DNA from: Nocardia sp. CY41
Lineage (GTDB): Bacteria; Actinomycetota; Actinomycetes; Mycobacteriales; Mycobacteriaceae
DNA length: 64,000 nucleotides
Direction: 5' to 3'
Assembly (NCBI RefSeq): GCF_009829325.1
Contig: NZ_VUOS01000014.1
Location: 124,001 to 188,000, forward strand
Made by a program: the position numbers and the translations under genes. Below the pieces are notes generated by a model. It was not told the origin of the DNA. It ran no database searches and saw only the letters and a list, made by a program, of their open reading frames with translations. Shown here piece by piece: positions 16,281 through 19,978 of the stretch (the first letter of the stretch is position 1; every line of letters starts with the position of its first letter).

Positions 16281-17987
16281 TCAGCCGCAGACGGCACCGA
16301 TCGAGGCCGAGCCGACCAGTTTCGTGTACTTGGCCAAGACGCCGCGGGTGTAGCGAGGCGGCAGTGGTGCCCAGCCTTCCCGGCGGCGCGCGAGTTCGTC
16401 GGCGTCGACCAGCAGGTCCAGGGTGCCCGCGGCGACGTCGAGCCGGATGGGGTCGCCGTCGCGCACGAAAGCGATCGGTCCGCCGTCCACGGCCTCGGGG
16501 GCGACGTGTCCGACACACAGGCCGGTGGTGCCGCCGGAGAACCGTCCGTCGGTGAGCAGCAAAACGTCCTTGCCCAGGCCCGCCCCCTTGATCGCCGCGG
16601 TGATGGCGAGCATCTCGCGCATCCCTGGACCGCCTTTCGGTCCCTCGTACCGGATGACGACCACGTCGCCCGCCGCGATCGTGCCGTCCTCGAGCGCGTC
16701 CATCGCCGCGCGTTCCCGGTCGAAAACCCGCGCCGTGCCGCTGAACACGTCGGAGTCGAAGCCCGCCGACTTGACGACGGCGCCGTCCGGGGCGAGCGAG
16801 CCGGACAGGATCGTGATGCCACCGGTCGGATGGATCGGTGCGGCCATCGCGCGGATCACCTTGCCATCGGGGTCCGGCGGTGTGATGTCGGCCAGGTTCT
16901 CCGCCACCGTCCGTCCCGTCACGGTCAGGCAGTCGCCGTGCAACAACCCGGCATCGAGCAGGGCCTTCATCATGACCGGCACGCCGCCGATCCGGTCCAC
17001 GTCGGTCATCACGTGATTGCCGAAGGGTTTGACGTCGGCGAGGTGCGGAACGCGGCGGCCGATGCGCGCGAAATCGTCCAGCGAGAGATCGACGTTCGCC
17101 TCGTGGGCGATCGCCAGCAGATGCAGCACGGCGTTGGTGGAACCGCCGAACGCCATGACCACCGCGATCGCGTTCTCGAACGCCGGTTTGGTGAGGATGT
17201 CGGAAGGAGTGATCCCCTGCCGGATCAACTCGATCACGGCCTCGCCGCTGCGGCGGGCGTAACCGTCCCGGCGGCGGTCGGTCGCGGGCGGGGCCGCGCT
17301 GCCTGGCAGCGACATGCCCAGCGCCTCCGCCGCACTGGCCATGGTGTTGGCGGTGTACATGCCACCGCACGCCCCTTCGCCCGGGCAGATCGCCCGCTCG
17401 ATGGCGGCGACGTCCTCGCGGCTCATCAACCCCCGGGCGCAGGCGCCGACCGCTTCGAAGGCGTCGATGATCGTCACCTCACGCTCGCTGCCGTCGGAGA
17501 GCTTGGCGATCCCGGGCAGGATCGACCCCGCGTACAGGAACACACTCGCCAAATTCAGCCGGGCCGCGGCCATCAGCATCCCGGGCAGCGACTTGTCGCA
17601 TCCGGCCAGCAGCACCGAGCCGTCGAGCCGCTCGGCTTGCATCACCGTCTCGACGCTGTCGGCGATCACCTCCCGCGAGACCAAGGAGAAGTGCATCCCC
17701 TCGTGGCCCATGGAGATGCCGTCGGACACCGAGATGGTGCCGAACTGCATGGGAAAGCCGCCGCCGGAGAAGACGCCGTCCTTACAGCCCTGAGCGAGCC
17801 GGTCCAGGGACAGATTGCAGGGAGTGATCTCGTTCCACGAGGACGCGACGCCGATCTGCGGCTTCTCCCAGTCCGCGTCGCCCATGCCGACCGCGCGCAG
17901 CATCCCGCGCGCGGCGGTCTTCTCCAGGCCGTCGGTGACGTCGCGGCTGCGCGGCTTGAGATCGGGAACCTTCGAATTCTCGGGCAT
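16281..17987 (-). CDS. ilvD: Dihydroxy-acid dehydratase (valine/isoleucine biosynthesis)
   Basis: A 568-aa enzyme matching IlvD over its whole length. It dehydrates 2,3-dihydroxy-3-methyl acids to the 2-keto precursors of valine, leucine and isoleucine, in the cytosol. The three conserved cysteines expected to hold the [2Fe-2S] cluster are present in TPCN (57), [10 protein letters not shown] (130) and [14 protein letters not shown] (207), and the Mg-binding lysine and C-terminal [18 protein letters not shown] segment are intact. The ATG at 17987 gives a normal N-terminus. It stands alone, divergent from the PopR/ClgR-like gene; no leucine-rich leader peptide or other attenuator was seen in the 129-bp intergenic region. 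Confidence 0.95.
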
Positions 17988-18116: not shown

Positions 18117-18497
18117 ATGAGCGAGCACCCGAGACTGCACTCGATTCCCGGTGGACGCGACGACCGGCAGCAGGACCTGCGCACACCGCCGGAACCCCTG
18201 TGGCGCGAGGTGCTCGGTGAACAGTTGCGCACACTGCGGCAGGACCGCAGCGAGACGCTGGTCGAAACCGCTCGCCGGGCGGGCATTTCCCCGCAGTATC
18301 TGTCGGAGGTGGAACGGGGACGCAAAGAGCCGTCGAGCGAGATGATCGCCGCCCTGGCCGGCTCCCTCGGCACCACACTGGGCGAGCTCACCGGACAGGT
18401 GGCCGACCAGCTGCGGGCCCGGCGCCGGATGGCGCTCTTGCGACGGCCTGCGCCGCGTTCCGCTACCGGGCCCACACTGATGGCCCTGGCGGCTTAG
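18117..18497 (+). CDS. PopR/ClgR-like XRE regulator of clp genes, C-terminus Leu-Ala-Ala
   Basis: A 126-aa protein with a Cro/C1 helix-turn-helix at residues ~33-92: [20 protein letters not shown], then [20 protein letters not shown]. The [11 protein letters not shown] segment is the hallmark of the ClgR/PopR activators of actinobacterial clp genes. Established work in Streptomyces shows ClgR and PopR are themselves destroyed by ClpP through C-terminal alanines; this protein ends MALAA, like an ssrA tag. It faces the clpP pair: its TAG stop overlaps the TAA stop of the serine-less clpP. The target assignment follows from family and neighbourhood and was not tested. Confidence 0.85.
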
Positions 18498-19087
18498 TCG
18501 CGCCGCCCCAGGACCTGGTCGACAAGGCCGTACTCGACCGCTGCCGACGCGGTGAAGACCCGGTCGCGGTCGGTGTCGCGGCGTAGCCGCTCCACCGTTT
18601 GCCCGGTGTGCTTCGACAGGATCGACTCGATCTCCGCGCGCATGCGCACCAGTTCGTCGGCCTGCAGGATCAGATCGGGAATCGTGCCCTGCCCGCGCGC
18701 GGCGGGCTGATGCAGCACCACCCTGGCGTGCGGGAGCATGGCGCGGCGACCGGGCTCGCCGCCCGCCAGCAGCACCGCGCCCACCGCGATCGCCTGCCCG
18801 ACGCAGGTGGTCTGCACAGGCGACTGAATGTGCTGCATGGTGTCGTACACGGCGAGCATGGACGACAGATCCCCGCCCTCACAGTTGATGTAGAGGTTGA
18901 TCTCCTGCTCCGGACTTTCCGACTCCAGGTGCAGCAGCTGCGCGATGAGCGCGTTGGCGACGCCCGAGTCGATCGGCGTGCCGAGGTAGACGATGCGCTC
19001 GGCGAGCAGGTGGGAGTAGATGTCGGTGATCCGCTCGCCGCCGCGCGGATGCTGCGCGATCACATTGGGAATGGTGTAGGTACTCAT
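18494..19087 (-). CDS. ClpP-family subunit with catalytic serine replaced by alanine
   Basis: A 197-aa ClpP homologue of normal length. Aligning the nucleophile region by eye to the canonical MGQAASMGA gives VGQAIAVGA here, so the catalytic Ser is Ala101 (codon GCG). His126 in LHQP and Asp175 in DRDRVFTA remain. The handle and oxyanion segments ([30 protein letters not shown]) are intact, so assembly is expected but not peptide cleavage. ATG 19087 overlaps the stop of the 50-codon repeat ORF (ATGA), and the active clpP lies upstream in the same transcript. It probably forms mixed tetradecamers as a structural or substrate-gating subunit; this is inference. Confidence 0.9.
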
Positions 19088-19236
19088 GCTCTGTCCTTTC
19101 CGGCATGAACGGGGCCCTGCGTGGTCACGCTGCGCTGCCGCCTCCGGGCCTGACCGCTCATGCTGTATCCGATTCCGGCATGAACGGGGACCTGCGTGGT
19201 CACGCTGCGCTGCCGCCTCCGGGCCTGACCGCTCAT
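19084..19236 (-). CDS. 50-aa ORF of two 25-residue repeats, coupled to both clpP genes
   Basis: Between the clpP genes an ATG at 19236 overlaps the stop of the upstream clpP (ATGA) and its own TGA overlaps the ATG of the downstream clpP (ATGA). The frame encodes exactly two 25-residue units, each beginning [15 protein letters not shown], continuing with V or G and then PVHAG, and ending IGYS or KDRA. The product would be highly basic. Three facts favour translation: exact 75-bp period preserving frame, coupling signals at both ends, and no internal stop. Against it, the duplicated DNA might act as RNA or merely pass ribosomes through the gap. No homologue is recognised. Confidence 0.5.
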
Positions 19237-19238
19237 GC
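19098..19238. repeat. Two near-identical 66-bp direct repeats, 75-bp period
   Basis: Copies at 19098-19163 and 19173-19238 differ at one base (ggggCcc against ggggAcc) and are separated by 9 bp. The copy on the right contains the stop codon of the active clpP. The low divergence points to recent duplication. Confidence 0.9.
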
Positions 19239-19838
19239 CGAGATCCCGATTCGCTGGCGTTGGGGGACGATCTGCCCGAACGAGTCGACGATGTGGTCGA
19301 CGAAGCCGTACTCCTTGGCCTGCGCCGCCGTGAACCAGCGGTCGTGCAGCGAATCCTCGTAGATCCGGTCGAAGGGCTGGCCGGTGTCCTCGGCGATGAT
19401 TCCGAGCACGGTGTCGACGGTGTAGCGCAGATCGTCGGCCTGGACCTCCACGTCCACGGCGGTGCCGCCGATGCCCGCCGATCCCTGATGCATCAGCACC
19501 CGTGCGTGCGGCAATGCGAAACGCTTGCCCTTGCTCCCCGACGACAAGAGGAATTGCCCCGCACTGCAGGCCAATCCGAGCGCGAGCGTGGAGACCTCGC
19601 ACGGCACCAGCCGCATCACATCGCGGATGGCGAGCATGGAGGGAACCGATCCGCCCGGCGAATGGATCCACAGCGAGATACCCGCCTCGGGATCCTCGGC
19701 GGCGAGCGTGAGCAGCTGGGTCATCAGCAGCGTGCCGTTGTCGTCGTCGAGCGCGCCGTCGAGCACGACGATGCGACGGCTGAGCAGTTGCTCGCGCGCC
19801 CGCCAGCTGAACATCGGGGTCTTGTCATCGTGAGCCAT
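19233..19838 (-). CDS. clpP: ATP-dependent Clp protease proteolytic subunit, intact triad
   Basis: A 201-aa ClpP with the complete triad Ser92 (LGLACSAGQ), His117 (LMHQGS) and Asp166 (SLHDRWFTA). ClpP forms the tetradecameric serine-protease chamber fed by ClpX/ClpC. The N-terminal propeptide is short. ATG 19838 was chosen; an in-frame ATG at 19865 would place the start in an upstream palindrome. It leads a coupled operon: this gene, the repeat ORF, then the serine-less clpP, resembling the clpP3-clpP4 pair that Streptomyces carries besides clpP1P2 and controls through PopR. That equivalence is inferred from gene context, not from a tree. Confidence 0.92.
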
Positions 19839-19845
19839 GGCTCCA

Positions 19846-19867
19846 CGGTGCCGCACCAGCGGCACCG
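19846..19867. promoter_or_regulatory. Palindrome just upstream of the active clpP
   Basis: CGGTGCCGC (19846-19854) and GCGGCACCG (19859-19867) are perfect 9-base arms around ACCA, 8 bp before the ATG. A second small palindrome GAACCGGTTC follows at 19867-19876. Either may be the binding site of the PopR/ClgR-like activator; alternatively the first could be an mRNA hairpin affecting translation. Confidence 0.5.
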
Positions 19868-19978
19868 AACCGGTTCCGCGCTGCCCTGGGCAGATCCGCT
19901 CTCAGCAGCCGGTGACGGACGACCGGTGCGCCGCTTGTCGCCCCAGCCCGAATGTGGCACCGGCGAACATGATCCGGC

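Follow-up and report, generated by a model that had tools for sequence, protein, structure and literature searches.

The housekeeping Clp core of Actinobacteria, ClpP1P2, is built from two subunits that divide into a cutting and a docking ring, as described in excerpts of PMC4416901 and PMC9765437. In Mycobacterium tuberculosis, an excerpt of the former states, both ATPases require the ClpP2 face (PMC4416901), and for Streptomyces an excerpt of the latter reports that ClpP1 cuts, that ClpP2 recruits the ATPases and that ClpP2, unlike ClpP1, tolerates a Ser-to-Ala exchange (PMC9765437). The same excerpt describes how, in S. lividans, the PopR regulator of a second pair, clpP3-clpP4, is degraded by ClpP1P2 and how this pair is induced when ClpP1P2 fails. 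Inactive ClpP subunits are met in cyanobacteria and plastids, according to part of PMC4673316. Our literature search, which drew on sources partly available as excerpts, found neither an inactive Nocardia ClpP nor a defective Streptomyces ClpP4 triad; the primary Streptomyces papers of 2000, 2002 and 2004 fell outside its scope, and prior notice is possible there.

Here we describe a clpP pair of Nocardia sp. CY41 that lies in a stretch of 64,000 nucleotides (the window) and resembles the Streptomyces clpP3-clpP4/PopR locus in its layout: a ClpP1-type gene is followed by a ClpP2-type gene, the pair stands beside a convergent, PopR-like helix-turn-helix regulator with a two-alanine end (LAA in S. 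fungicidicus), and an operator of the form TCTGCC-N3-GGC lies upstream. The second subunits differ in that those of the Streptomyces type keep the serine and carry Gly for the catalytic His, whereas the window subunit has lost the serine and kept the His. A triad-deficient ClpP homologue beside an active-type ClpP is also what characterizes ClpR of cyanobacteria and plastids (PMC4673316, in part). Listeria ClpP1, which has Asn for Asp, likewise has an altered triad and works beside a second ClpP, but there the triad aligns into the active form in the mixed complex (PMC9765437, in excerpt), whereas in the window the serine itself is gone. The features of the locus are as follows.

18117..18497, plus strand: PopR/ClgR-like helix-turn-helix regulator of 126 aa (HTH_31), C-terminus ALAA, convergent with the clpP4-like gene
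18494..19087, minus strand: clpP4-like gene, 197 aa, ClpP2-type, no serine nucleophile (A101, H126, D175; Pfam CLP_protease and alignment)
18785..18787, minus strand: GCG codon for Ala101 at the ClpP serine-nucleophile site (sequence reading and alignment)
19084..19236, minus strand: spacer mini-ORF of 50 aa, sharing ATGA with the stop of the clpP3-like gene and with the start of the clpP4-like gene
19233..19865, minus strand: clpP3-like gene, ClpP1-type, Ser-His-Asp, ATG start probably at 19838
19880..19894, minus strand: operator of the PopR type (TCTGCC-CAG-GGCAGC) upstream of the pair, conserved in the genus
19895..19909, minus strand: weaker second unit resembling the operator, GCTGCT-GAG-AGCGGA, another 15 bp upstream

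A ClpP2-type subunit without a serine nucleophile

A first-pass annotation of this DNA had placed a ClpP with Ser changed to Ala101 and with His126 and Asp175 kept at 18494-19087 without giving a strand. An open reading frame is indeed found there, on the minus strand, while the plus-strand reading is interrupted by a stop; it encodes an intact 197-aa ClpP, and the alignment returned the very same three residues. The product matches Pfam CLP_protease with an E value of 1.3e-67 and reaches 227.7 bits with the family profile PF00574 (S14, ClpP peptidase family), for which the cut-off is 20.2, yet it lacks the Ser-His-Asp triad of this family, having A-H-D instead. Its AlphaFold model has a mean pLDDT of 84.3, with residues 1-13 and 16-23 below 50, and superimposes on solved ClpP structures with a Z score of 29.7 and an rmsd of 1.1 over 173 residues for the best chain; by this model the subunit is an ordinary ClpP fold. 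Overall, the subunit aligns best with ClpP chains from other bacteria; among the M. tuberculosis chains, it matches subunit 2 and its partner subunit 1.

Loss of the serine is accompanied by a change in the active-site loop, which reads NSPGGS in most Ser-His-Asp subunits of our set and NCEGGD in most of the serine-less group. At the changed positions, 154 of 160 serine-less subunits have Cys and 159 have Glu; counted for the Ala/Gly-type subunits, Cys69 is present in 152/158 and Glu70 in 157/158, compared with Ser in 42/43 and Pro in 41/43 of the Ser-His-Asp subunits. His126 (158/160) and Asp175 (157/160) are kept although the serine is gone. The residue and triad counts, like those for dN/dS and for the type-A operators given below, refer to distinct sequences or to one locus per genome; some genomes are repeated in the counts of Cys69/Glu70, of ATGA overlaps, of partners over all loci and of repeat copies, and in the first regulator survey.

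On the minus strand, the ClpP1-type gene precedes the ClpP2-type gene. By alignment the partner is Ser-His-Asp, in agreement with the Ser92, His117 and Asp166 previously noted for it, a numbering that fits an ATG at 19838. The two genes had been described as cotranscribed; they do lie on the same strand with a spacer of 145 nt, and a common transcript is presumed from this arrangement. ATGA overlaps of the spacer mini-ORF at 19233-19236 and 19084-19087 would fit translational coupling of the pair, and a direct 4-nt ATGA overlap between the pair genes was estimated for 144 of 316 loci, which are partly redundant and whose start codons were guessed. A 66-nt repeat, present twice (19098-19163 and 19173-19238) at a spacing of 75 bp, makes up most of the spacer DNA. 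A 40-nt core of this repeat has 23 copies in the genome (at most 3 mismatches), several of them in tandem at 75 bp. Among close relatives, five copies are present in L005, three in L009, two in L014, one each in L008, L012, L013, L015 and L016, and none in L010 and L017-L020. We take the repeat to resemble a variable repeat of the MIRU type.

The genome holds four clpP genes, the window pair and a housekeeping pair; both housekeeping subunits are Ser-His-Asp, whereas one subunit of the window pair has lost the triad. ClpX is encoded elsewhere in the genome (668.6 bits, cut-off 359), as is an 890-aa frame of the ClpB/ClpC type that contains LGF, scores below the cut-off of every model matched and is taken by us for ClpC1.

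The serine-less state is conserved and under purifying selection in Nocardia

A relative with at least 61% identity is carried by 144 of 148 genomes of the genus, and all 144 loci were read. The window type is found in 132 of them and comprises 121 A-H-D, 9 G-H-D, 1 A-Q-D and 1 S-H-D subunits, so that the canonical triad is absent from 131/132; the other 12 loci hold a more distant pair, whose second subunit is S-H-D in 11 and A-H-D in one. Partners of the window-type subunits are S-H-D in 128 of 132 loci, three more lying outside a short locus and one having its Ser region cut off. When all loci are taken together, the partner is S-H-D in 322 of 324, and the Ser region of the remaining two is cut off.

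Coding sequences of both genes were compared in 1500 sampled genome pairs from 128 genomes, of which 1441 with dS between 0.2 and 1.2 in both genes were kept. Median dN/dS was 0.157 for the serine-less subunit and 0.149 for the partner, at a median dS of 0.71 for both. Purifying selection on the serine-less subunit is thus as strong as on its partner, and both are kept by selection. The idea of a recent loss, raised in the first-pass annotation, does not survive these values, the Ala or Gly in 131/132 and the change of the loop from NSPGGS to NCEGGD; the survey of Nocardia orthologues that it had proposed reveals that close relatives do not all have Ser. A sequencing error, chance and a strain-specific mutation are ruled out by the Ala or Gly in 131/132 same-type loci of the genus, and a pseudogene is ruled out by the dN/dS of 0.157.

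Single loci depart from this pattern. In L102 (from genome G024), the lone window-type Nocardia subunit with Ser, the codon is TCG, and the Ala-bearing relative that stands beside it in both trees described below has GCG; based on this neighbour, the codons and the retained NCEGGD loop, we read L102 as a regain. L043 (G041) has Ala with the NSPGGS loop intact and is the 1 of 12 in the otherwise Ser-bearing second Nocardia pair type. L183 and L184 have Ser but carry Thr for Asp, and the full triad is absent from these as well.

The residues before the catalytic Asp, which we take to be an inter-ring sensor, are Leu-His in 156 of 162 type-A partners (type A denoting the window's type and its kin) and Asp-Arg in 149 of 160 serine-less subunits. 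We discarded the idea that Leu-His in the partner is an adaptation to the inert ring, given that the Asp is equally absent from the partners of those type-A relatives that have Ser.

A PopR-like regulator and a PopR-type operator accompany the pair

The regulator scores 63.5 bits with the ClgR equivalog model, below its cut-off of 170. It was detected in 124 of the 144 Nocardia loci, is convergent in all 124 and ends in AA in 116 of them; it went undetected in the remaining 20/144 loci, only 4 of which are short and 16 full-length. On its other side it adjoins ilvD, encoding dihydroxy-acid dehydratase (16281-17987 of the window, minus strand; 722.9 bits, cut-off 618.15), with no evident link to the pair.

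The operator upstream of the pair matches the S. lividans PopR target as quoted in an excerpt of PMC9775585. Its core was found in 123 of 139 upstream regions of the genus, between -92 and -119 from a fixed anchor and most commonly at -101 and -116; in 50 shuffles, the average was 0.18 and the maximum 2, a control that flatters because the core pattern was chosen after the sites had been seen. Agreement with the published half-sites at 10 or more of 12 positions was seen in 9/9 Streptomyces-type loci, in 21/22 of the second type and in 106/167 of type A, as well as in 3/7 remoter kin and 0/7 housekeeping-like loci (L208 is counted in two groups). When the half-sites were permuted, type-A loci gave a mean of 3.25 over 59 permutations, with one permuted half-site, CCTGCT, reaching 85/167 against the real 106/167; the CTGC core is common to both. 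Genome-wide, six exact operator matches were obtained at five places, against 8 + 6 for the backwards control, which makes the motif alone unspecific at that scale. A further exact copy, at G000:C52:507368-507381, is found some 130 nt ahead of an open frame in L370 and is possibly another target of the regulator, or a chance match.

Neither the PopR-like regulator with its ALAA end nor the PopR operator had been part of the first-pass annotation, which made no mention either of the repeat in the spacer or of the His that Streptomyces-type loci have lost independently.

Residues at the putative ATPase-docking face

Pocket positions were set by their offset from the nucleophile and carry E. coli numbering. 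The Tyr62 site is Tyr in 160/160 serine-less subunits and Trp in 162/162 partners. At the Phe82 site, the 160 serine-less subunits have His (103), Phe (33) or Tyr (24), while the partners have Leu in 160/162; the window protein has His, and judging from this residue, ATPase docking may be weakened or altered. Phe occupies the site in 6/6 housekeeping ClpP1 of Nocardia, and a Tyr (Y98) is found there, according to an excerpt of PMC9765437, in Streptomyces ClpP1, a subunit that recruits no ATPases. Because of these two cases, an aromatic residue at the Phe82 site is by itself no marker of the docking ring. The serine-less subunit also has a long N-terminus, and its alignment with Thermus thermophilus ClpP begins at chain residue 2. 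In the partner, by contrast, only residue 24 and those after it align.

Probable function as a conditional backup protease with one inert ring

We consider it probable that the locus encodes a conditional backup Clp core in which one ring cuts and the other, inert, serves for docking; this is the simplest reading of the sequences. The ClpP1-like subunit (19233-19865) would form the cutting ring, and the ClpP2-like subunit (18494-19087) would form the opposite ring, shape the chamber and offer its N-loop and surface pocket to an ATPase, either ClpX or a ClpC. Lacking a serine nucleophile, the ClpP2-like subunit is predicted to be unable to hydrolyse peptides. By analogy with S. lividans, a regulatory loop can be inferred in which the PopR-like activator would normally be degraded via its ALAA end by housekeeping ClpP1P2; with ClpP1P2 failing or inhibited, it would accumulate, bind the operator at 19880-19894 and turn the pair on. 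What we observed directly is the state of the sequences, their conservation and selection, the order of the genes, the end of the regulator and the conservation of the operator; co-assembly, ring arrangement, docking, activity and expression are inferred. A mixed chamber with one inactive ring had already been suggested for this pair: the serine-less ClpP is indeed intact and encoded together with one of the active type, and such a chamber, as a predicted arrangement, is the best reading. Counting against the proposed core are the 11/144 Nocardia loci where the second subunit of a related pair has S-H-D, the retention of His126 and Asp175 without Ser, and the 20/144 loci in which no regulator was detected.

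Serine-less and active subunits might instead alternate within each heptamer in the manner of cyanobacterial ClpP3/ClpR, for which the Synechococcus ring R-P3-R-P3-R-P3-R, described in part of PMC4673316, is a precedent. We hold this to be unlikely, as the pairing of a ClpP1-type with a ClpP2-type sequence points to separate rings like those of actinobacterial ClpP1P2. It is more improbable that the serine-less subunit acts as a dominant-negative regulator that enters the housekeeping ClpP rings and lowers their activity. An extra ClpP of Streptomyces (ClpP_ADEP) can disrupt ClpP1 complexes, as an excerpt of PMC12607617 reports, but the subunit studied here is encoded with an active-type partner of its own, with ATGA overlaps in 144/316 loci and via the mini-ORF in the window, and its dN/dS is close to that of the partner.

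The high conservation of Cys69 and Glu70, at positions where Ser-His-Asp subunits have Ser and Pro, and the retention of His126 and Asp175 could also mean that the old active site has been reused for another activity or as a ligand or metal site formed by these four residues. Members without the His (A-Q-D, A-D-D) occur within the group, however, and we give this explanation only a slight chance. Decay of the gene or a sequencing error, conceivable in that TCG and GCG differ by one base, has next to no probability in view of the Ala or Gly in 131/132 same-type loci of the genus and the dN/dS of 0.157.

The proposed backup core would be a natural experiment on why Clp cores have more active sites than perhaps needed. 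It predicts that the backup protease known from Streptomyces works with one ring of active sites; if ClpP4 of S. lividans resembles the Streptomyces-type loci described below, a core with one inert ring would be enough for life. For drugs directed at ClpP, it would mean that Nocardia holds a second, conditional Clp core.

Broken triads in other Actinomycetota

A scan of named loci, which kept the best 80 loci only and is not a census, contained 66 from Nocardia, with Ala in 60 and Gly in 6. Outside Nocardia, Ala was found in Catenulispora, Actinomadura, Kribbella, Mycolicibacterium frederiksbergense and the Embleya and Tsukamurella plasmid records, Gly in Mumia, Ala plus an exchange of His for Asp in Glycomyces, and Gly plus an exchange of Asp for Gln on a Prescottella equi plasmid.

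The Streptomyces-type relatives with Ser kept and Gly as catalytic His were seen on plasmid p1 of S. fungicidicus (L205) and in eight genomes. In a follow-up, a match (E up to 1e-75) was obtained in 71 of 150 genomes of the genus. The 48 loci read, some of them from the same genomes as the earlier eight, comprise 46 S-G-D and 2 S-G-E subunits, and all 28 partners in reach are S-H-D. L205 is up to 93% identical to the subunits of these loci, which is why we call the genus Streptomyces.

For the trees, 314 sequences were reduced at 88% identity and equal triad to 90 representatives, and the triad columns were left out. Both a quick and a careful version required five changes between complete and broken triad, which we read as four losses (the main clade, the Streptomyces-type clade, L043 and L305) and one regain (L102). 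The serine-less subunit is nested in this actinobacterial ClpP2-type tree, which was made without cyanobacterial sequences. Its nearest NCBIfam models are general ClpP models (best score 243.2 bits, cut-off 249), and it scores 164.6 against a cut-off of 263 with PRK12552, which we take to be a cyanobacterial ClpR-like model. Given its place in the tree, we tentatively take the resemblance to ClpR to be convergent.

A general rule suggests itself, which we put forward tentatively and with more doubt than conviction: in PopR-controlled Clp cores of Actinomycetota, selection may repeatedly strip catalysis from the ATPase-docking ring, through exchanges that differ from case to case (Ser to Ala or Gly, His to Gly, Asp to Ala). 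The outcome would be proteases that are obligately active in one ring and that differ from the housekeeping enzyme in processivity, in the length of their products or in their sensitivity to inhibitors. If this rule were true, Streptomyces ClpP4 would also be a pseudo-protease.

ClpP pairs with a broken triad are located on four plasmid-labelled records (L203, L204, L205 and L206, from Embleya, Tsukamurella, Streptomyces fungicidicus and Prescottella equi), for which reason the clpP cassette may move. The Embleya record is linear, measures 5.7 Mb and may be a chromosome-sized replicon.
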